A stretch of 6,589 nt of DNA. It comes from Candidatus Aegiribacteria sp. (GTDB taxonomy: Bacteria; Fermentibacterota; Fermentibacteria; Fermentibacterales; Fermentibacteraceae). How positions within the stretch are numbered: position 1 is the stretch's first letter; every line of letters begins with the position of its first letter. This document shows positions 1 to 6,589 of the stretch, piece by piece. The translations under genes and the position numbers were made by a program. The stretch is from assembly GCA_021107345.1 (NCBI GenBank), contig JAIOSX010000018.1, positions 1 through 6,589 on the forward strand, written 5' to 3'. A model generated the notes under the pieces. It was not told the origin of the DNA. It worked only from the letters and a program-made list of their open reading frames with translations, and made no database searches.

Positions 1-1069
1 ACCCCGTATCCGGGAGAGCCATATCCCCGTACTCGCATTCACTGAAGTAGGAAAAGGGCGTTCCTCTCACATAGTAGTGTTCCTCCTGAAAGCGCCCACC
101 GTAAATATTCAAGAGTGCGGCAGCAAGTTCCGGACTTACTTCGGGTCCGCTGATCCAGTTAAGATCCATGCTCAGACGAGTCTCTTCAGGTGAAGGAATC
201 GAACATTCATCGACTGAAACCGGTTCAAGATTCTCTATCAGACCAAGAAGTGCCTGCTGTCTTTCATCTTCTGTGTCAGCATCAAGCATCGCGGGCAGTA
301 CTCGGAACAGAGAATAGTCCCAGTTTATATCTCCTCTGCCTATCTGCGGATGGTGATACTTCAGGAATACCCATACTTTTCCTAGAAGATCAAGTGACTC
401 AAGCTGGAAGTCATTCACTTCTGTAAATTCAAGACCCGATCCCGTATCAAATTCATGATCCAGTTCCGCATTGGGCAGAATACGCGGTGAAGCTTCGGAA
501 AGGGGTTTGCCGTCCAGCAGGAGTTCGAGGTCATCTATCCATACTGTTCCTGTTCCGTAGAGAAACATACCCAGCTCCAGTTCGCGGCCGAAGCTACTGT
601 TCTCTATGCTTACCTCTAATTGACGCCATTCAGCAGATCCAGGCAGGTTTTCCAGGTACATGTTTTTCCACGACTCCAGTTTGCCATACTTATCGTATAG
701 GTATAGATACAGGCCTATTTTGCAGTCGTCGCTCACATCCACCGTACGAAACCAGCAACTCAGTGTAATTATATTTTCCTCATAGGTGAAAGGAGTGTAT
801 CTGCAAATACAGCCATAATCTTCCACCGGTTCTATGCCTATGTAGTTTACTCTGAAAGAGCGTACCCCGCTGTACCCTTGTAGAGAATCAGTACATCCAG
901 AGTAGCCCAGGCCTTCAAATGTCCAGCCAACCGGGATCTGGTTGTCTCCATCCATCACTTCAAAGTCCATATTGTTCAGAACAGGTATTAGAACCTGTTC
1001 AGCATTGACCACGGTAGTTATCAGTGAAATAAAGAGCGTTCTGAGTAACCATTTCCGATGTATTTTCAC
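1..1069 (-). CDS. Exported S41 family peptidase, N-terminal 356 residues (gene runs off the left edge)
   Basis: I translated this frame directly; it is open from a GTG start to the window edge. The start is chosen because GGGGGTG lies about 7 bases upstream and because it gives a signal peptide (basic MKIHRK, then a hydrophobic stretch to about residue 22, ending VNA). Residues about 31-185 look like a carbohydrate-binding-like beta-sandwich (NNMDFE, IPVGW, WIDDLEL). Residues 228-260 (LLGKVWVFLKYHHP, then INWDYSLFRVLP) are the hallmark of the region before the catalytic domain in large S41 peptidases of the Bacteroidetes/FCB type; DLNWI at 302-306 fits the same family. The Ser/Lys catalytic domain would lie beyond the window and cannot be checked. 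The family cleaves proteins outside the cytoplasm; the substrate is unknown. It has its own promoter and follows repeat copy 1. Family call fairly sure; activity not shown. Confidence 0.82.
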   Translation of the reverse strand, partial: MKIHRKWLLRTLFISLITTVVNAEQVLIPVLNNMDFEVMDGDNQIPVGWTFEGLGYSGCTDSLQGYSGVRSFRVNYIGIEPVEDYGCICRYTPFTYEENIITLSCWFRTVDVSDDCKIGLYLYLYDKYGKLESWKNMYLENLPGSAEWRQLEVSIENSSFGRELELGMFLYGTGTVWIDDLELLLDGKPLSEASPRILPNAELDHEFDTGSGLEFTEVNDFQLESLDLLGKVWVFLKYHHPQIGRGDINWDYSLFRVLPAMLDADTEDERQQALLGLIENLEPVSVDECSIPSPEETRLSMDLNWISGPEVSPELAAALLNIYGGRFQEEHYYVRGTPFSYFSECEYGDMALPDTG

Positions 1070-1100
1070 GAATGCACCCCCCCATTGACAGCAATTCTCG

Positions 1101-1130
1101 ATTATGATCACAATGTAATTAATGTTTCAA
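1101..1130 (-). promoter_or_regulatory. Probable sigma-70-type promoter of the S41 peptidase gene
   Basis: On the minus strand TTGAAA (1130-1125) and CATAAT (1106-1101) are separated by 18 bp, each one mismatch from consensus. Transcription would start near 1093, giving a leader of about 25 bases that contains the G-rich ribosome binding site. It lies between repeat copy 1 and the gene, so the peptidase gene is probably transcribed independently of the propeller gene. Inferred from sequence only. Confidence 0.55.
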
Positions 1131-1195
1131 ATCAGTCTCATATATATATAATCCGGGGCAGGATAAATGATTAAATTTGATTCTAACTGTGAATC

Positions 1196-1282
1196 CATTC
1201 TCGAACCGCATAAACACAAAAACCGCAAGGCATTTTGCCCTGCGGATAACACTCTGGCGGGCCACAGTAGATAGTATTCGAA
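1196..1282 (-). repeat. 87-bp intergenic element, copy 1
   Basis: First of three gap-free copies. It differs from copy 2 at 9 positions and from copy 3 at 10. It begins 29 bp beyond the stop codon of the propeller gene and ends 127 bp before the S41 start. Ends are CATTCTCGAAC on the plus strand and ATTCGAA on the right; these arms are roughly inverted copies of one another. The centre holds GGCATTTTGCC within a larger palindrome. Copy 1 differs in the core (CCGCAAGG where the others have CCGCCAGG), which makes its terminator-like hairpin fully paired. No target-site duplication is seen in the flanks. I do not recognise the element family. Confidence 0.9.
1218..1245 (-). terminator. Intrinsic terminator of the propeller gene, inside repeat copy 1
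   Basis: Read on the minus strand, CCGCAGGGC and GCCTTGCGG form a nine-pair stem (one G-T pair) around the loop AAAAT, followed directly by TTTTTG. This is a textbook Rho-independent terminator, about 65 bases after the propeller stop codon. It lies wholly within the 87-bp element, so the element itself supplies the stop signal. Confidence 0.7.
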
Positions 1283-1311
1283 AGATATTGGGGTGTATAA
1301 AGCGACCGTGT

Positions 1312-2595
1312 TCACCTGATGACTGTTACCAATCTGCTTTCAGTGCGATCCAGGGCGGTGACCCTGCAAAGGTAGGTTCCTGAAGATACACCATTCAGAT
1401 CCAGCTGCAGTTGTCCGCTTCCACCGTCGATATCTGAGAAGTTCTTATGAAGAACAACTCTTCCGGTGAGATCGTAGAGTACTAAACCTACATGGGCACA
1501 GTTTTCCAGGTTGATCATTAGATTCAGGATTTCATGGGTGGGATTCGGGCTCGGGCCTTGCAGAAAACTGGAGAGTTCCCGATCCTCAGTGAATATTCCC
1601 GTCTCATACTCTTCGGCGTACTTCACTCCGTCGATACCTATTCCGAAGGCGATTCTGGCAAGCATCTCTTCGCTCAAGGCAAGGGATACGCAGTAACCAT
1701 TGTCGATAACCTCTGAGGACCAGCTTCCACTATCCCTGGAACTGTACACTACACTGCATGACAGCGGATCAGTACATACAAGGTGTGGTTCACCGGAATC
1801 ATCAAGCCTCATGGAAACGAAAGTCAAGGGAGTTCCGCAATCCTGAACTGCCACCTCGAAGTGCCACTGGGAACCATCGAAATAGGTATATTTCACATTG
1901 GGACTGTTCACATAAGCCACCCTGGGATTCTGATATTCATCCAGTACCAGTGAGAATTGTTCGCAGTCAAGTGTGGTCCCTGAATCTATCAGAGTAAAAT
2001 TCCACTGAGATCCGTCCCATGATGCAAGTTTAAGGTAATCGTTCCTGTAAACGTATGCAATATGAGGGTACCCAGAGTCGTCAAGAGCAATTGAGGATGC
2101 TTCCTCCCAGCAGTCCGGGTCCACCGTTTCCTTCTCCCACTCGCTGCCTGCCCATCGGGCGTAGAGCAGTCCAGAGGATAGTTGACAGACTATGTGAGGT
2201 TCTCCCATACTGTCCAGGGCTATGGATGTATAACCGCCGTCGGAGTTTTCAACTACAGTCTTTAACCACTCTGACCCGGTCCAGTGAGCATATTTCAGCT
2301 GATAGTCGCCACTCATGCCGTATCTGTAGGTTATGTGCGGGTGATCCCACTGGTCCAGGACAAGACAGGTGTGCATACTGGTTTCTTCTGTCTCCAGACA
2401 TTCCGTAAACCACTGGTCACCGTTGTAATAAACATACCAGAGATCAATTATACCATGAGATATGTGGGGATTACCTTCACTGTCCAGGGCTATGGATGTA
2501 TAACCGCCATCGTAGTCATTTATGACCTCTATGTTCCACGCTGCCTGCACGGGTATTACCACAATAATACAAAGTAACCATGAGTATTTCTTCAT
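1312..2595 (-). CDS. Secreted seven-repeat beta-propeller protein with C-terminal sorting-like domain
   Basis: 427 residues from the chosen ATG. An in-frame ATG at 2628 would add 11 residues but has no ribosome binding site; the ATG at 2595 has GGGGT just upstream and gives a clean signal peptide (MKKYSW, hydrophobic core, cleavage near VQA-AW). Seven repeats of about 43-47 residues follow, each with a motif like SIALDSxGxPHI, starting near residues 34, 77, 124, 168, 215, 261 and 304, usually with YAxWxGSxW between them. This predicts a seven-bladed propeller related in look to sialidase/BNR-type repeats. Residues about 348-427 (SPNPTHEI, LYDLTGRVV, GTYLCRV, ending LVTVIR) are a FlgD-Ig / type IX sorting-like domain, suggesting display on or release from the surface. 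No catalytic residues can be assigned; the ligand is unknown. It lies between repeat copies 2 and 1. Confidence 0.85.
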   Translation of the reverse strand: MKKYSWLLCIIVVIPVQAAWNIEVINDYDGGYTSIALDSEGNPHISHGIIDLWYVYYNGDQWFTECLETEETSMHTCLVLDQWDHPHITYRYGMSGDYQLKYAHWTGSEWLKTVVENSDGGYTSIALDSMGEPHIVCQLSSGLLYARWAGSEWEKETVDPDCWEEASSIALDDSGYPHIAYVYRNDYLKLASWDGSQWNFTLIDSGTTLDCEQFSLVLDEYQNPRVAYVNSPNVKYTYFDGSQWHFEVAVQDCGTPLTFVSMRLDDSGEPHLVCTDPLSCSVVYSSRDSGSWSSEVIDNGYCVSLALSEEMLARIAFGIGIDGVKYAEEYETGIFTEDRELSSFLQGPSPNPTHEILNLMINLENCAHVGLVLYDLTGRVVLHKNFSDIDGGSGQLQLDLNGVSSGTYLCRVTALDRTESRLVTVIR

Positions 2596-2642
2596 CCCAT
2601 ACCCCACAAACATAAATATATGTTTCATAATTTACAAAATGC

Positions 2643-2664
2643 CACTATTGTTCACTATTGTCAA
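2643..2664 (-). promoter_or_regulatory. Candidate -35 region and tandem 10-bp repeat upstream of the propeller gene
   Basis: A perfect TTGACA reads on the minus strand at 2664-2659, but the -10 at normal spacing is poor (CATTTT, 2641-2636). CACTATTGT occurs twice exactly 10 bp apart on the plus strand (2643-2651 and 2653-2661), one helical turn, overlapping the -35. This could be a binding site for an activator that compensates for the weak -10, or chance in AT-rich DNA. Confidence 0.35.
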
Positions 2665-2736
2665 GCAATTGTCTGCCCGGCTTATATCTACATGAAATCC
2701 CATAGAGAGATTCAATGTAAATACTTGCTGAAAGCC

Positions 2737-2823
2737 CATTCTCGAACCGCATAAACGGAAAATCCGCCAGGCATTTTGCCCTGCGGATAACACTCTGGCG
2801 GGTCACAGTAGACTATGTTCGAA
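2737..2823 (-). repeat. 87-bp intergenic element, copy 2
   Basis: Gap-free match to copy 3 (7 differences) and copy 1 (9 differences). It begins 27 bp beyond the toxin stop codon and lies upstream of the propeller gene. The arms CTCGAAC (left) and GTTCGAA (right) are inverted repeats with one mismatch. On the minus strand, CCGCCAG can pair perfectly with CTGGCGG, and a second hairpin (CCGCAGGGC with GCCTGGCGG, at 2764-2786) is followed by ATTTTCC. It probably acts as the 3' end of the toxin-antitoxin transcript. Confidence 0.9.
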
Positions 2824-2850
2824 CGACGTTAATTCAGGATTGAATGTACT

Positions 2851-3114
2851 CTATTCGTAGTGTGCCCACATGCGAATTACCTTAACGATTCTTCTCTCCT
2901 CAAGAACCTGATAAACCAGTCTATGCTGTATGTTGATCCTTCGAGAACATGCGCCTGACAGATCACCAACCAGCTTCTCAAACGGAGGGGGAGATCTGAA
3001 GGGATCCTCTTCGAGGATACGAAGAAGTTCTTCGGCTTTTTCTTTAAGGCCGGAACTTACGAGTTTCTTGGCGTCTTTTCTGGCTTGTCTTGTGAACACA
3101 AGCTGCCAGTTCAC
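2851..3114 (-). CDS. yoeB: RelE-superfamily toxin, Txe/YoeB type
   Basis: 87 residues, close to the usual 84-85 for this family. These toxins are ribosome-dependent endoribonucleases that cleave mRNA in the translating ribosome until bound by the antitoxin. The family's key positions are visible: Glu46 (in PFEKL), Arg59 and Arg65 (SRRIN, HRLVY), and the terminal His85-Tyr86 (AHYE). These match the catalytic Glu, Arg, His and Tyr described for E. coli YoeB. The fold order (basic helix, PFEKL, LSGACSRRIN, HRLVYQV, VIRMWAHY) is typical. The ATG overlaps the antitoxin stop by 4 bases (ATGA), so it is translationally coupled. No truncation is seen, so the toxin is probably active. The symbol is by family resemblance. 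Confidence 0.9.
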   Translation of the reverse strand: MNWQLVFTRQARKDAKKLVSSGLKEKAEELLRILEEDPFRSPPPFEKLVGDLSGACSRRINIQHRLVYQVLEERRIVKVIRMWAHYE

Positions 3115-3353
3115 CAGTCCAACTTATTTTCACAGTCTTCCACCGGTGTATTGATACCAGCAAGAATTGATTCACGCATGCCTGGAATACTTGTAAGGTA
3201 AAGGGTCTCCTGTATTGAACGCCAGTCATCCTCACCTATCAAGACTGCTGAATTCCGCTTTCCTGCAATCTGAACAGGTTCATGCGATTGAGCTACCTCA
3301 TCAAGCAGCTTGTAAAGCCTTTTCCTTGCCTCAGTGGCTGTAATATTAGTCAT
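3111..3353 (-). CDS. yefM: YefM/Phd-family antitoxin
   Basis: 80 residues. The N-terminal part (TATEARKRLYKLLDEVAQSHEPVQIAGKR in family style, then NSAVLIGEDDWRSI) is the Phd/YefM DNA-binding and dimerisation fold. The acidic, flexible C-terminal part (about 58-80, ending NKLDW) would wrap the toxin. It neutralises the adjacent YoeB-type toxin and, as in the family, should repress its own operon, more strongly in complex with the toxin. GGAGGTG six bases before the ATG gives a strong ribosome binding site, fitting the need for excess antitoxin. It is first in a two-gene operon bounded by two 87-bp elements, which makes the operon look like a self-contained passenger unit. Confidence 0.9.
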   Translation of the reverse strand: MTNITATEARKRLYKLLDEVAQSHEPVQIAGKRNSAVLIGEDDWRSIQETLYLTSIPGMRESILAGINTPVEDCENKLDW

Positions 3354-3364
3354 TATACACCTCC

Positions 3365-3403
3365 ATACGTACGTAATATCGTACGCATATAGATTGATGT
3401 CAA
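3365..3403 (-). promoter_or_regulatory. Promoter and probable autoregulatory operator of the toxin-antitoxin operon
   Basis: On the minus strand TTGACA (3403-3398), a 17-bp spacer and GATATT (3380-3375) form a good promoter. An inverted repeat, ATACGTACG (3365-3373) and CGTACGCAT (3380-3388), matching at 8 of 9 positions with a 6-bp centre, straddles the -10. GTAC-centred palindromes over the promoter are what YefM/Phd-type antitoxins bind, so autorepression is the likely control. The operator role is inferred from position and symmetry. Confidence 0.65.
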
Positions 3404-3423
3404 TATAACAAAATGAAGCTCTT

Positions 3424-3510
3424 CATTCTCAAATCGCATATACGGAAAATCCGCCAGGCATTTTGCCCTGCGGATAACACTCTGGCGGGCCACAGTTGAC
3501 AATATTCGAA
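3424..3510 (-). repeat. 87-bp intergenic element, copy 3
   Basis: Third copy, 37 bp beyond the stop of the broken FlgD-Ig-like gene and upstream of the toxin-antitoxin promoter. Seven differences from copy 2. Its arms are CTCAAAT (left) and ATTCGAA (right): relative to copy 2 the left C to T change is matched by a right G to A change, so pairing of the arms is kept. Hairpin at 3451-3473, followed on the minus strand by ATTTTCC. Confidence 0.9.
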
Positions 3511-3547
3511 CTGACTATCGTCATCAGAAAATATTAGTGAGCGGAAG

Positions 3548-3775
3548 TTAATCCAGCAGCAGTACCTTCTCGGTCACAGAACTCCCGCTCCCGATCAGGG
3601 TAATGAAATAGATTCCGTGATCGCACCGTTCTCCGCTTCGGTTACTGCAGTTCCATGTAGCAACCTGTTCTTCACCCTCAAGATCGATCTCACTTACCAG
3701 CCTTCCAGAACAGTTGTGGATCAGAATCCTGGCCGATCCCGAAAGCGACAAGCCTGCAAGTTCAAGCCATTTCGG
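3548..3775 (-). pseudogene. 3' end of a secreted-protein gene: FlgD-Ig / sorting-like C-terminal domain fragment
   Basis: From the in-frame TGA at 3778-3776 the frame reads WLELAGLSLSGSARIL, then NCSGRLV, GEEQVATWNCSNRSG, DHGIYFITL and ends KVLLLD. This is the second half and more of a FlgD-Ig/Por-sorting-like domain; the usual leading NP.PF segment and the whole passenger protein are missing. A 67-residue reading from a TTG at 3751 is possible but would begin in mid-domain without a signal peptide or ribosome binding site, so I regard it as a remnant. It abuts an opposite-strand fragment of the same kind. Repeat copy 3 lies just downstream, as for the intact genes. Confidence 0.7.
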
Positions 3776-4020
3776 TCAATCCCAATCCGTTCTTCGATCA
3801 TCTCATCATAAATTTCAGAACCGCTGACCCTCAGGAGTGTATTGTTTCTATCCATGATTTGACGGGAAGACTTGTTGTCAGGTGGGATGCATGGCTTCCG
3901 CATAGTAATTGGAACAGTATCTTCTGGACACCCTGTTCTCTTCCAGGTGGCTTGTACACTATCACAGTAACAGGGTTCAATGGACGATCATCCACTGCAT
4001 GGGCGCTTTATCTGAACTGA
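3766..4020 (+). pseudogene. 3' end of another secreted-protein gene: FlgD-Ig / sorting-like C-terminal domain fragment
   Basis: Read directly from the sequence; it lacks a start codon. From 3778 the frame gives NPNPFFDHLIINF, then VSIHDLTGRLVV, SNWNSIFW, LPGGLYTITVTG and SSTAWALYLN before TGA at 4018-4020. That is a complete domain of about 80 residues from the NPNPF motif to the end, but nothing of the protein that should precede it. Upstream the frame runs into the minus-strand fragment, so the junction lies near 3765-3778. No 87-bp element follows this fragment. The exact left boundary is uncertain. Confidence 0.7.
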
Positions 4021-4142
4021 AAAGCATTCCCGGGTGAGGCATGTCCTGCTGCTGAATTCTGAAAGCCAGTCTGCTGCTTATTCTCCTGATATAGAATGGC
4101 TCAGGTAAGCATGGTGTGTAGCTGCGCCGCGGATGGAGGGAT

Positions 4143-4171
4143 TTGACGTCATAGTACTGTTAGCTTAAACT
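4143..4171 (+). promoter_or_regulatory. Promoter of the TrmB-like regulator, implying a leaderless mRNA
   Basis: TTGACG (4143-4148), a 17-bp spacer and TAAACT (4166-4171) form a plausible sigma-70-type promoter. The -10 ends only 6 bases before the ATG at 4178, so transcription should begin at or next to the start codon. No Shine-Dalgarno sequence is present before the ATG, in agreement. Confidence 0.5.
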
Positions 4172-4177
4172 ACCAAC

Positions 4178-5053
4178 ATGAAAAACCAAAAAAACTACAC
4201 ACAGCCATTGCAGGCTCTGGGCTTTACAGAGACCGAGGCACTGGTCTACGGTTATCTCGTCGAAAACTCCCCTGCAACTGGTTACAGGATCAGTCACGCG
4301 ATAGGCAAGCAACCACCAAATACCTACAAGGCTATCGCTACTCTCGAAAACAAGGGAGCAATCATAGTAGAGGTGGGAGACAAAAAGCTTTGTCGGGCGG
4401 TACCCCCCACGGAACTGCTTAACAATCTCGAACGACGCTTCATGCAACACCGACTGGAGGCCGACCGAGCGCTAGAAGATCTCTCCCGCCAATCACCGGA
4501 TGACGGTATCTATCATCTCAAGACCGTGGATCAGGTGATTCAGAGGAGCAGGGCCATGTTGAAGCGTGCCAGCGGCATCGTCCTTTGTGATCTGTTTCCG
4601 GGTCCTTTCGGACTGCTTGCGGATTCCCTCAGCGAAAGTGCAGCCAGGGGTGTACTCGTAGCATGCAAGGTCTATGGTGATGAACAAATCTCAGGGGTGA
4701 AAACCTACCAGCTTACCGAGCGTGAACAGGCGCTGGATATCTGGCCCGGTCAGCAGATCAGCATTATCATCGACAGCGAAGAATACCTGCTGGGGTTACT
4801 CTCCAGAGATATGACGAGTGTGCATGAGGCAGTGTGGAGCAACAGTACTTTTCAATCCTGCATACATCATAACAATGTTTCAGCTGAAATCCTGTTCACA
4901 GCAATCAAATCGGAGCACCCGGCCCTGTACGCTTCATTCGAGGAGGAGTTGAACCAGATCTCACTGCTGGCATTCCAGCCATCCGGTCTGGAGATGCTAT
5001 GCCAGCGCTATCAATCAACTCTACAAACATCTCGCGAGGATGACACATCCTGA
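4178..5053 (+). CDS. TrmB-family transcriptional regulator
   Basis: 291 residues. Residues about 8-75 form the TrmB winged helix (ALGFTETEALVYGYLVENSP, then GYRISHAIGKQPPNTYKAIATLENKGAI and the VPPTEL segment). About 80-105 is a charged helix likely to be a dimerising coiled coil (ERRFMQHRLEADRALEDL). The rest (DGIYHLKTVDQVIQRSRAML, then IVLCDLFPGPFGLLAD and AARGVLVACKVYG) is the phospholipase-D-like effector part found in this family, without a catalytic HKD motif. Relatives repress or activate sugar transport and other metabolic genes; the ligand here cannot be told. The ATG has no ribosome binding site but sits right behind a -10 box. The adjacent membrane protein gene could be a target, but nothing in the sequence proves it. 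Confidence 0.82.
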   Translation: MKNQKNYTQPLQALGFTETEALVYGYLVENSPATGYRISHAIGKQPPNTYKAIATLENKGAIIVEVGDKKLCRAVPPTELLNNLERRFMQHRLEADRALEDLSRQSPDDGIYHLKTVDQVIQRSRAMLKRASGIVLCDLFPGPFGLLADSLSESAARGVLVACKVYGDEQISGVKTYQLTEREQALDIWPGQQISIIIDSEEYLLGLLSRDMTSVHEAVWSNSTFQSCIHHNNVSAEILFTAIKSEHPALYASFEEELNQISLLAFQPSGLEMLCQRYQSTLQTSREDDTS

Positions 5054-5102
5054 TATCACGCATGAAAGATGCATGAGTTTCATACTTCAGACGGTAACTG
5101 AA

Positions 5103-5131
5103 TTGACAATCTTATATTAGTTGCATATGCT
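5103..5131 (+). promoter_or_regulatory. Promoter of the small membrane protein gene
   Basis: Perfect TTGACA (5103-5108), 17-bp spacer and TATGCT (5126-5131). It predicts a leader of about 45 bases before the ATG at 5185. The gene therefore need not depend on read-through from the regulator upstream. Confidence 0.6.
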
Positions 5132-5184
5132 ACCAATACACAGGAAGTGTTAATATTGAATCTATCTTCACAAAGGAGATAACT

Positions 5185-5364
5185 ATGAAGAAACCCAGTA
5201 AAGTAATAACTATCAACAGCATCATCTGGGGACTGGTTATTTTAGGGTGTGCGCTTGTTCTCAGAGGTACCGGAGCGTATGAAAAGATATGGCTGATTCT
5301 CGCAGGGGGCGCTTTGATCTCGACGAGTCTCATTGAAAAATCTCGCTTAAAGATAAAGGATTAG
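5185..5364 (+). CDS. Small two-helix membrane protein, 59 residues, function unknown
   Basis: I read this short frame directly. AAAGGAG six to seven bases before the ATG is a strong ribosome binding site, and a good promoter lies upstream, which argues for a real gene. The product starts MKKPSK, has a hydrophobic segment at about 11-27 (NSIIWGLVILGCALVLR), a short polar loop with GTGAYEK, a second hydrophobic segment at about 35-49 (IWLILAGGALISTSLI) and a basic tail ending RLKIKD. It is probably a hairpin in the cytoplasmic membrane with both ends inside. I do not recognise a family. Its stop codon is 4 bp from the insertion sequence; a longer original tail cannot be excluded. Confidence 0.72.
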   Translation: MKKPSKVITINSIIWGLVILGCALVLRGTGAYEKIWLILAGGALISTSLIEKSRLKIKD

Positions 5365-5369
5365 TATAG

Positions 5370-5389
5370 CGATTCGTTAAAACCATTAC
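5370..5389. repeat. Left terminal inverted repeat of the IS630 element
   Basis: 20 bp, 15 of which are perfectly inverted at the outer end of the right repeat before a single mismatch. The transposase stop codon (TAA, 5388-5386) falls inside it. Confidence 0.88.
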
Positions 5390-6522
5390 ATATACTGCAT
5401 GTCAAAGTCAAAGTTTTTCCAGCGATGGATAACAGGTTCTGTGTTTGTCTCCTCGATGCCTTTAAGGATTCTTTCCTTGAGTTCATCTTTCGTTTCAACA
5501 CGAATATGCTTCAGAAAGGTCCGTGCTATCTTTGAAAAATATGTTTCAATCAAATTAAGCCAGGACCCATGAGTGGGCGTATGAACATAAATAAAGCGAT
5601 TCGGCCTGGTCTTGAGATAGCTCATGGTTTCCTTTGAAATATGTGATGAGTGATTATCCAATATGATACGTATCGTACAATCCGCAGGATAGTACTCATC
5701 CAGTTCTTTAAGCAATAGAATAAACTCTCTGCTTCTATGCCGTTCATGAACCTGGCCGATTACATGTCCTGTATGTAAATCCAGTGCAGCCAATAGTGAC
5801 AATGTGCCGAGTCGCTCATATTCATAATCTCTTGCTATCTGCATGTGTTTCCCGGGTATTGGTGGTAAGTCAGGGGTGGTATTCCTAATTGCCTGTATAC
5901 CGGGTTTTTCATCGAGAGATACTGTGATAATCTTGTTGTCTTTCTTCTTGCTGTCGTTGATTACATTTACTTCTCTATAAACAATAAGCACTTCTTGCAT
6001 CTTCCTGTCAAAATCCTTATCCCGTCGCTCAATATAGTAGCGGATCTTATGGGGTTGAACGGGATGAGATTTGAGTATCCTCTGAATAGTTGCCTTCGCA
6101 GCCCGTTCCAAACACTTGTATCCCGCAGATGGAGCATGTTTCCGTGTATGCTTTGCCAGTTGAGATAAAGACCAGACTTCTGCGGCATAGCCGTGATCCT
6201 TCGGCTTCGTGCAGGCCAGGTTAACCACCCACGCTTTCGCATCATCTGTAATTATGGGAGATTTGGGGCTGTGATACTTGTCTTTCAATCCTGTTTCTAT
6301 TCCAGCAGCAAGGGCTTTATCAATGCACTTGTATATAGTTGGTCTGCTTGTATTCAGCTCATTGCTGATTGCTGTGATTGATTCACCATCAGAGTATTTC
6401 AGAAGAATACAGGCGCGCTGCACCTCTCTTATTGAAGCAGTTCGAGATTGACTGATTTTCAATAACTTCATATGCTGACTCTTATCCAACTTCAATTCAG
6501 GTCTGGAACTTTTACGTGACAT
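5386..6522 (-). CDS. IS630-family DDE transposase
   Basis: 378 residues, full length for the family. An N-terminal helix-turn-helix region at about 32-70 (REVQRACILLKYSDG, SITAISNELNTSRPTIYKCI) binds the inverted repeats. The DDE catalytic triad is complete: Asp204 (VSLDEKPGIQ), Asp289 (IILDNHSSH) and Glu326 (SWLNLIETYFS), the last two separated by 36 residues as in IS630/mariner enzymes. The protein cuts and pastes the element at TA targets. GGGAGGA just before the ATG is a strong ribosome binding site. No frameshift or stop is seen, so it is probably active. Confidence 0.95.
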   Translation of the reverse strand: MSRKSSRPELKLDKSQHMKLLKISQSRTASIREVQRACILLKYSDGESITAISNELNTSRPTIYKCIDKALAAGIETGLKDKYHSPKSPIITDDAKAWVVNLACTKPKDHGYAAEVWSLSQLAKHTRKHAPSAGYKCLERAAKATIQRILKSHPVQPHKIRYYIERRDKDFDRKMQEVLIVYREVNVINDSKKKDNKIITVSLDEKPGIQAIRNTTPDLPPIPGKHMQIARDYEYERLGTLSLLAALDLHTGHVIGQVHERHRSREFILLLKELDEYYPADCTIRIILDNHSSHISKETMSYLKTRPNRFIYVHTPTHGSWLNLIETYFSKIARTFLKHIRVETKDELKERILKGIEETNTEPVIHRWKNFDFDMQYM

Positions 6523-6545
6523 AGTATCCTCCCTTGGTTGAAGAT

Positions 6546-6574
6546 ACTATAGTGAAAAAGGAATGTAACGTAAA
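6546..6574 (-). promoter_or_regulatory. Promoter of the transposase, partly within the right inverted repeat
   Basis: On the minus strand TTTACG (6574-6569), a 17-bp spacer and TATAGT (6551-6546). The -35 overlaps the inner end of the inverted repeat, so transposase bound to its repeat could repress its own gene. Confidence 0.45.
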
Positions 6575-6589
6575 GGTTTTAACGAATCG
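6570..6589. repeat. Right terminal inverted repeat of the IS630 element
   Basis: Inverted match to 5370-5389 at 19 of 20 positions. It reaches the last base of the window. Confidence 0.88.

Follow-up and report, generated by a model that had tools for sequence, protein, structure and literature searches.

The stretch considered here (6,589 nucleotides of Candidatus Aegiribacteria sp., contig JAIOSX010000018.1, positions 1 to 6,589; hereafter the window) carries an 87-bp element in three direct copies. A repeat search places them at 1196-1282, 2737-2823 and 3424-3510, with start spacings of 1541 and 687. The genes that they serve are all on the minus strand, and the gaps from stop codon to element are 27 bp (stop 2851), 29 bp (stop 1312) and 37 bp (stop 3548). 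In the alignment the copies share one orientation, sharp edges and unrelated flanks. An initial inspection of the bare letters (the sequence-only reading) had described just this arrangement, 27-37 bp past the stop codons, and the repeat search and the alignment bear it out. It had also counted three unrelated gene units. Two of these are complete, among them the toxin-antitoxin operon, which Pfam and NCBIfam identify as a YefM/YoeB pair; the third (open reading frame (ORF) 3548-3751) is only a C-terminal remnant. The 87-bp element is probably the joint between consecutive cassettes of an additive array without a recombinase of its own; in relatives, the anchor of this array is the 3' end of tRNA-Asp(GTC). 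For the window's own genome, we infer the same anchoring.

The 87 bp had first been taken as a single element. Comparison with relatives shows a joint of two parts instead: the 28-bp tail of one gene unit and a 59-bp linker before the next unit, of which only the tail is constant. In genomes G001 and G002 the element lies again 3' of other genes, and its constant part is the gene-proximal 31 bp only. Read in gene orientation, this conserved core is TTCGAATATTGTCTACTGTGGCCCGCCA|GAG, i.e. the 28-bp tail plus GAG. On its 3' side follows a hairpin, of one kind or another, together with a T-rich tract and in many cases GTTCGAG at the end. The linker varies among relatives, and the length of 87 bp belongs to one linker type. 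A profile built from the window copies and three relatives scores the window copies at E ~1e-28, a value that is circular for these copies, and Rfam gives no match for the window up to E 1. Exact scans with the window's linker letters, which in hindsight belong to the variable part, found no match in the viral or genome contig sets. A 21-mer taken from the tail gave no match in the viral contig set, nor did a 47-nt tail-plus-linker query in plasmids or phages.

With a looser script of our own, which has its own shuffles, a terminator-like hairpin was scored in 34 of the 41 linkers, compared with 98 of 820 after shuffling. The stricter standard terminator scan picks out a single one of the three window copies; its total is 7 sites, where shuffles give 4.2. 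On the gene-sense strand the three copies fold mildly better than their shuffles (z of -2.4, -1.3 and -2.1; about -1.6 for the other strand). A terminator would account for the hairpin.

The tail was followed through 42 draft metagenome-assembled genomes (MAGs) of Fermentibacterota, the phylum of G001. The 31-mer core (at most 3 mismatches) has 24 matches in 7 of the 42 genomes, never on more than two contigs of a genome, while the reversed core, used as control, has none in the same set. Tails with 4-5 mismatches also occur in G024 and G025. A 20-mer of the tail (2 mismatches) is found in 10 of the 42 genomes, the additions being G025, G014 and G020. The G014 match lies inside a gene that by eye reads like EF-G and is taken as chance. 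In G020 an apparent inverted pair of tails proved an assembly artefact: the 7,940-bp contig G020:C15 (L256) is its own reverse complement and holds one tail, with a different 3' end. The final collection was drawn from 16 stretches, with two abutting loci read together as a single stretch, and comprises 32 tails (at most 6 mismatches) and 9 tRNA-Asp joints. On the multi-tail contigs read that are without tRNA-Asp, the tails all lie on one strand (window, 3; L044, 3; L045, 6; L047, 2; L088, 4). This clustering and shared orientation speak for the cassette idea of the sequence-only reading.

Where a tail and tRNA-Asp(GTC) are present on the same contig (six contigs, from G002, G015, G017, G018, G022 and G025), all 12 tails lie 3' of the tRNA gene and face the same way, and the array head is in all six the CCA end of tRNA-Asp. 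The tRNA-Asp 3' end is complete at 9 of 9 joints, and linkers of the kinds that follow tails stand directly 3' of the encoded CCA. Compared blind, the first 60 nt behind tRNA-Asp matched a linker behind another genome's tail in 8 of 28 readable loci (35 genomes with a match, 30 of them retrieved as loci, 2 of these too short; the tRNA-Asp of G019 was not recovered). These matches fall in 7 of 8 tail-bearing genomes and in 1 of the 20 remaining ones (hypergeometric p 5e-5, with kinship left uncorrected). The tail-bearer without a match is G025, whose first linker is truncated; the extra match is G021, where the best tail-like match has 9 mismatches. The tail itself shares a TTCGA start and a CCGCCA end with the tRNA 3' end, and its likeness to the 3' end of tRNA-Asp is matched by 31 of 20000 shuffles.

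Upstream of tRNA-Asp, much the same genes recur in the loci read, with less agreement in G016, G042 and G043. On the other side, the tail-free G016 has a predicted outer-membrane protein gene (FadL-like) 95 bp after tRNA-Asp. A homologue of this gene, as judged by eye (that of G022 has only a weak Pfam match), bounds the arrays: its distance from the last tail is 132 bp (G025), 208 bp (G022), 1.6 kb (G002) or 3.7 kb (G017). Between tRNA-Asp and the last tail there is one unit in G022, one unit plus a gene-free unit of 118 bp in G025, and six units in G017, while array head and array end of G002 lie on two separate contigs. G016, an array-free relative, thereby shows the empty site. Tail-free genomes are not all alike in this: in G012, other genes follow tRNA-Asp.

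The units are mostly of one operon (25 complete units, median 1034 bp, range 118-4343). Most genes point along the array and several are reversed. The window's YefM/YoeB unit recurs at 85-92% identity in G001 (two contigs), G017 and G018 (cut by the contig end), and its genes are also found in G024 at 77% identity. Its neighbors differ from place to place. In the window it stands between a 479-aa-type gene (upstream) and a 438-aa gene (downstream), in G017 between a 364-aa gene and a 186-aa gene, and in G001:C61 between DinJ/YafQ and a 340-aa gene; in G001:C125 a 443-aa gene lies downstream. DinJ/YafQ is upstream of YefM/YoeB in both G001:C61 and G018, so the order is partly kept. DinJ/YafQ units themselves are present in G001 and G018, the latter with a whole unit and another that the contig end cuts off; in G015 such a unit is the first after the tRNA. 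The window's S41-peptidase unit is also present in one other genome (G018). In most unit pairs, not in all (e.g. the 364-aa pair), the shared stretch reaches the last base of the tail; on the 5' side it starts 1 to 176 bases past the joint. Other array content includes methyladenine glycosylase, TfoX_N, ChlI/ChlD-like AAA and VWA proteins, DOMON, FG-GAP and Por_Secre_tail proteins, and a RelE-like/HTH pair. The earlier suggestion of mobile cassettes in the window has largely held: the stretches 2796-3482 and 1255-2795 look like cassettes, and the toxin-antitoxin unit recurs elsewhere with matching limits.

Table 1. Gene units, tails and linkers of the array in the window.
Feature	Position	Strand	Basis or remark
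S41-peptidase unit, start only, cut at the window edge; ORF from about 1111 down	1..1254	-	G018 likeness
Linker, copy 1: GAG, terminator-like hairpin (stem 1245-1223), GTTCGAG	1196..1254	-	
438-aa-protein unit, complete, 1541 bp; ORF 1312-2628, C-terminal sorting domain (Por_Secre_tail)	1255..2795	-	
Tail, copy 1, ends the 438-aa-gene unit (TTCGAATACTATCTACTGTGGCCCGCCA)	1255..1282	-	2 mismatches to core
Linker, copy 2: hairpin 2762-2788, GTTCGAG	2737..2795	-	missed by stricter terminator scan
Toxin-antitoxin unit, complete, 687 bp; antitoxin 3111-3353 (Phd/YefM), toxin 2851-3114 (Txe/YoeB)	2796..3482	-	Pfam, NCBIfam
Tail, copy 2, ends the toxin-antitoxin unit	2796..2823	-	3 mismatches to core
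Linker, copy 3: hairpin 3449-3475, ATTTGAG replaces GTTCGAG	3424..3482	-	missed by stricter terminator scan
3' remnant of a unit with a 479-aa gene (whole in G017)	3483..3763	-	82% over 281 columns
Tail, copy 3, ends the truncated 479-aa-type gene	3483..3510	-	1 mismatch to core

The units of the window are listed in Table 1. Over 1256 columns, the S41 unit shares 94% identity with the G018 unit, whose 757-aa product has Peptidase_S41. Around ORF 3548-3751, only 3465-3763 matches the 479-aa gene of G017. The 438-aa gene contains two 56-bp direct repeats (2191-2246 and 2461-2516, 84% alike) that come from a repeated protein motif. Beyond the array, positions 4139-5364, with a small ORF and the gene of a TrmB regulator, share 88% identity with a stretch of G001 in which we found no tail. 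From this likeness and the abrupt end of the array gene at about 3763, we conclude that the array has here become linked to other chromosomal DNA by rearrangement. The TrmB-type protein (4178-5053) has 90% identity in a Candidatus Fermentibacteria MAG and 84% in a Candidatus Aegiribacteria MAG (genomes G001 and G002). At 5370-6589, an IS630-family transposase gene (5386-6522) that looks complete is flanked by 20-bp inverted repeats (95% complementarity).

The search for an enzyme concentrated on recombinase families. A tyrosine recombinase nearby had been proposed as a check, and no PF00589 or TIGR02249 match was found on the array contigs, among the matches listed. The G022 array, available whole from tRNA-Asp to the bounding gene, contains no match to either model, and this array-bearing genome has just three PF00589 matches above cut-off. 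By score alone, two PF00589 matches of about 140-153 bits are present in 13 of 14 genomes (one in G025), and all 14 have a match of about 83-95 bits. As far as scores and presence tell, these matches resemble housekeeping Xer-type families, and they occur in the tail-free G016 and G011 too. The 83-95-bit match would be a third tyrosine recombinase besides the XerC/XerD-like genes (e.g. G001:C46, G022:C37 and G016:C3). Serine recombinases (PF00239) do not track the arrays either: they are present in 8 of 14 genomes, with none in the array-bearing G001, G017, G019 and G025. The integron integrase model TIGR02249 is above cut-off in 21 of the 42 genomes, including six of nine tail-bearers (G002, G015, G017, G018, G024 and G025). 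No such match is found in the array-bearing G001, G019 and G022. Eight recombinase stretches (six with a TIGR02249 gene, one just below cut-off and one with PF00589 only) contain no tail within 8 mismatches. The IntI-family recombinases are solitary, about 390-414 aa long, with an N-terminus longer than the 315-position TIGR02249 model (G002, G015, G017, G018 and others; L146-L151). In G015 and G018 the same solitary gene adjoins a 712-aa Tex-like gene.

The favored model builds on the observed clustering and orientation of the tails, their tRNA anchoring in relatives, the units with new neighbors, the hairpins and the array-free relative. Each cassette ends in the fixed 28-bp tail, with its tRNA-like start and end. 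Between this tail (or the CCA of the tRNA) and the next gene lies the linker: GAG, usually a terminator-like hairpin, and often GTTCGAG. A putative site-specific recombinase in trans, most likely a tyrosine recombinase, would take a cassette in circular form and join it either to the tRNA end or to a further tail. Since neither an array-linked nor an array-tracking enzyme was found, we can only infer such a recombinase. The tails keep a conserved middle that is not that of a tRNA, and the tRNAs keep their own 3' arm, which places the exchange at or 3' of CCGCCA. Because the linkers stay reliably with neither neighbor, the point of strand exchange can be narrowed only to the interval from CCGCCA to the first base that is specific to a cassette. 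The tRNA would remain intact because no exchange takes place upstream of its CCA. The linker hairpin would end the tRNA transcription and may insulate the units from each other. A tail that arises as a displaced tRNA copy, by exchange at the T-loop, was considered and rejected: tails and tRNAs each keep their own middle.

Several observations weigh against this model. The arrays read contain no recombinase, and the scans showed none whose presence goes with that of the arrays. Linkers remain reliably with neither the preceding nor the following gene. Without TTCGA and CCA, the likeness of tail and tRNA is equalled by 1149 of 20000 shuffles and is not significant; the link to the tRNA therefore rests mainly on position. 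The window itself is without a tRNA, the G020 tail lies off any seen array, and G025 has a truncated first linker as well as its gene-free 118-bp unit. On G024:C90 (L137), a contig on which no tRNA was detected, YefM/YoeB genes and a tail (4 mismatches) immediately precede a gene resembling mraZ; this may be a cassette outside the tRNA-Asp site. The base of the comparison is, moreover, a set of draft MAGs.

An inactive or purely homologous array is an unlikely alternative. Here no site-specific enzyme would act at present, and repeats of ~30-90 bp would allow RecA-dependent shuffling, duplication and loss of units that were acquired long ago. Such an array would agree with the missing enzyme, with the loose assortment of linkers, and with the window linkers, which are closer to each other than to some in relatives. 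However, the 3' limit of the units is the tail in most compared pairs, across several species and next to different neighbors, and the tRNA anchor is left unexplained.

A true integron variant, as raised by the sequence-only reading, is quite improbable. The 87 bp would be a divergent attC, the tRNA joint would be attI, and the solitary IntI-family integrases encoded elsewhere would act in trans. The integron attC consensus consists of the boxes R'' (RYYYAAC) and R' (GTTRRRY). The arrays do resemble integrons: the units are ordered and mostly co-oriented, one recombination-site-like element follows the gene, and toxin-antitoxin units are among the content. Cassettes of a gene and one 3' site are shared and re-ordered here as well, and the TIGR02249 matches in array-bearing genomes fit the proposal. 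Nevertheless, no GTTRRRY or RYYYAAC boxes are found (the element ends in TTCGAAT and GTTCGAG), no integrase lies in the arrays read, no intI is adjacent among the matches listed, the array head is a tRNA gene, and some units are reversed. Moreover, TIGR02249 stays below cut-off in three array-bearing genomes, the recombinase stretches are free of tails, and the gene-sense strand folds just mildly better than shuffles.

A dispersed extragenic repeat with a preference for gene ends, either a terminator element or one like the repetitive extragenic palindromes (REP) or the miniature inverted-repeat transposable elements (MITE), had been the other option of that reading and is highly improbable. 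It would account for the position just after genes and for the terminator-like hairpin. The element without a gene, regarded at the outset as a sign of such a repeat, was seen once, in the 118-bp unit of G025; flanking genes move along with the tails. The tail is clustered and co-oriented, unlike the truly dispersed repeat of the same genomes. This 27-bp REP-like repeat, GGGGYCGGACGTCACTTGCGACACTTA, is found in 15 of the 42 genomes, spread over many contigs in either orientation, and some copies form inverted pairs at short distance (examples: G017:C50:39947-40007 and G014:C26:1154-1217). It also occurs inside some cassette linkers; the block was at one time considered part of the site and was set aside as a separate repeat.

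Xer-driven modules like the pdif modules of plasmids, which are likewise small, often toxin-antitoxin units without their own enzyme, moved in trans (as proposed here), and whose dif site the tail start loosely resembles in its E. coli form, are scarcely credible, since the recurrent dif-like site GTCCGATAAGRGATATTATGTAAA (11 of 14 genomes) agrees with the tail at only about 11 of 20 positions (by eye), no dif-like sites lie at the unit ends, and the units do not alternate with inverted sites as pdif modules do; an Xer/dif origin was dropped.

The joined-cassette array can best be compared to the additive flexible islands at tRNA genes described for Ca. Actinomarinales (PMC7771536), Methylophilaceae (PMC10872708) and Alteromonas (PMC4119200). 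In these islands cassettes accumulate behind tRNA genes, and the available parts of the three reports name no enzyme. The cassettes of Alteromonas lie at a tRNA (PMC4119200), while the islands of Methylophilaceae contain repeats of the last 20 nt of tRNA-Lys (PMC10872708). As far as these parts go, the likeness extends to the conserved tRNA at the head, a tRNA-end-like repeat at the cassette end and a variable content common to several species. Their repeat, however, is described as a copy of part of the tRNA, whereas the present arrays have a fixed 28-bp tail whose conserved middle is not that of a tRNA, combined with terminator linkers and mostly one-operon units. Tycheposons, in the partial account available (via PMC10872708), measure 4-200 kb and carry a tyrosine recombinase. 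They share the tRNA at one edge and a cargo of host-useful genes; here the units measure 118-4343 bp and no recombinase was found in the arrays.

Overall, the array works like the additive islands and is laid out like an integron. It is not an integron by the defining features and not a dispersed repeat. The principle is known from additive genomic islands; the regular, terminator-linked form appears to be new, and in the titles and abstracts of the open-access literature we recognised no array of the kind, either from this phylum or built in this way. A further proposal is made only tentatively: the arrays may represent another gene-cassette platform beside integrons. The tRNA-Asp 3' end would be attI-like, and the 28-bp tRNA-end mimic with its terminator linker attC-like. 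One recombinase in trans, perhaps of the solitary IntI family, would feed cassettes behind the tRNA, each with a terminator that separates it from tRNA-Asp expression. The regular parts of the system (fixed tail, terminator linker, one tRNA, array-free relative and shared units) make both the enzyme and the joining point testable. For this candidate phylum, the arrays would be an integron-like store of toxin-antitoxin and secreted-protein genes, one that an integron search based on R boxes would be expected to miss.

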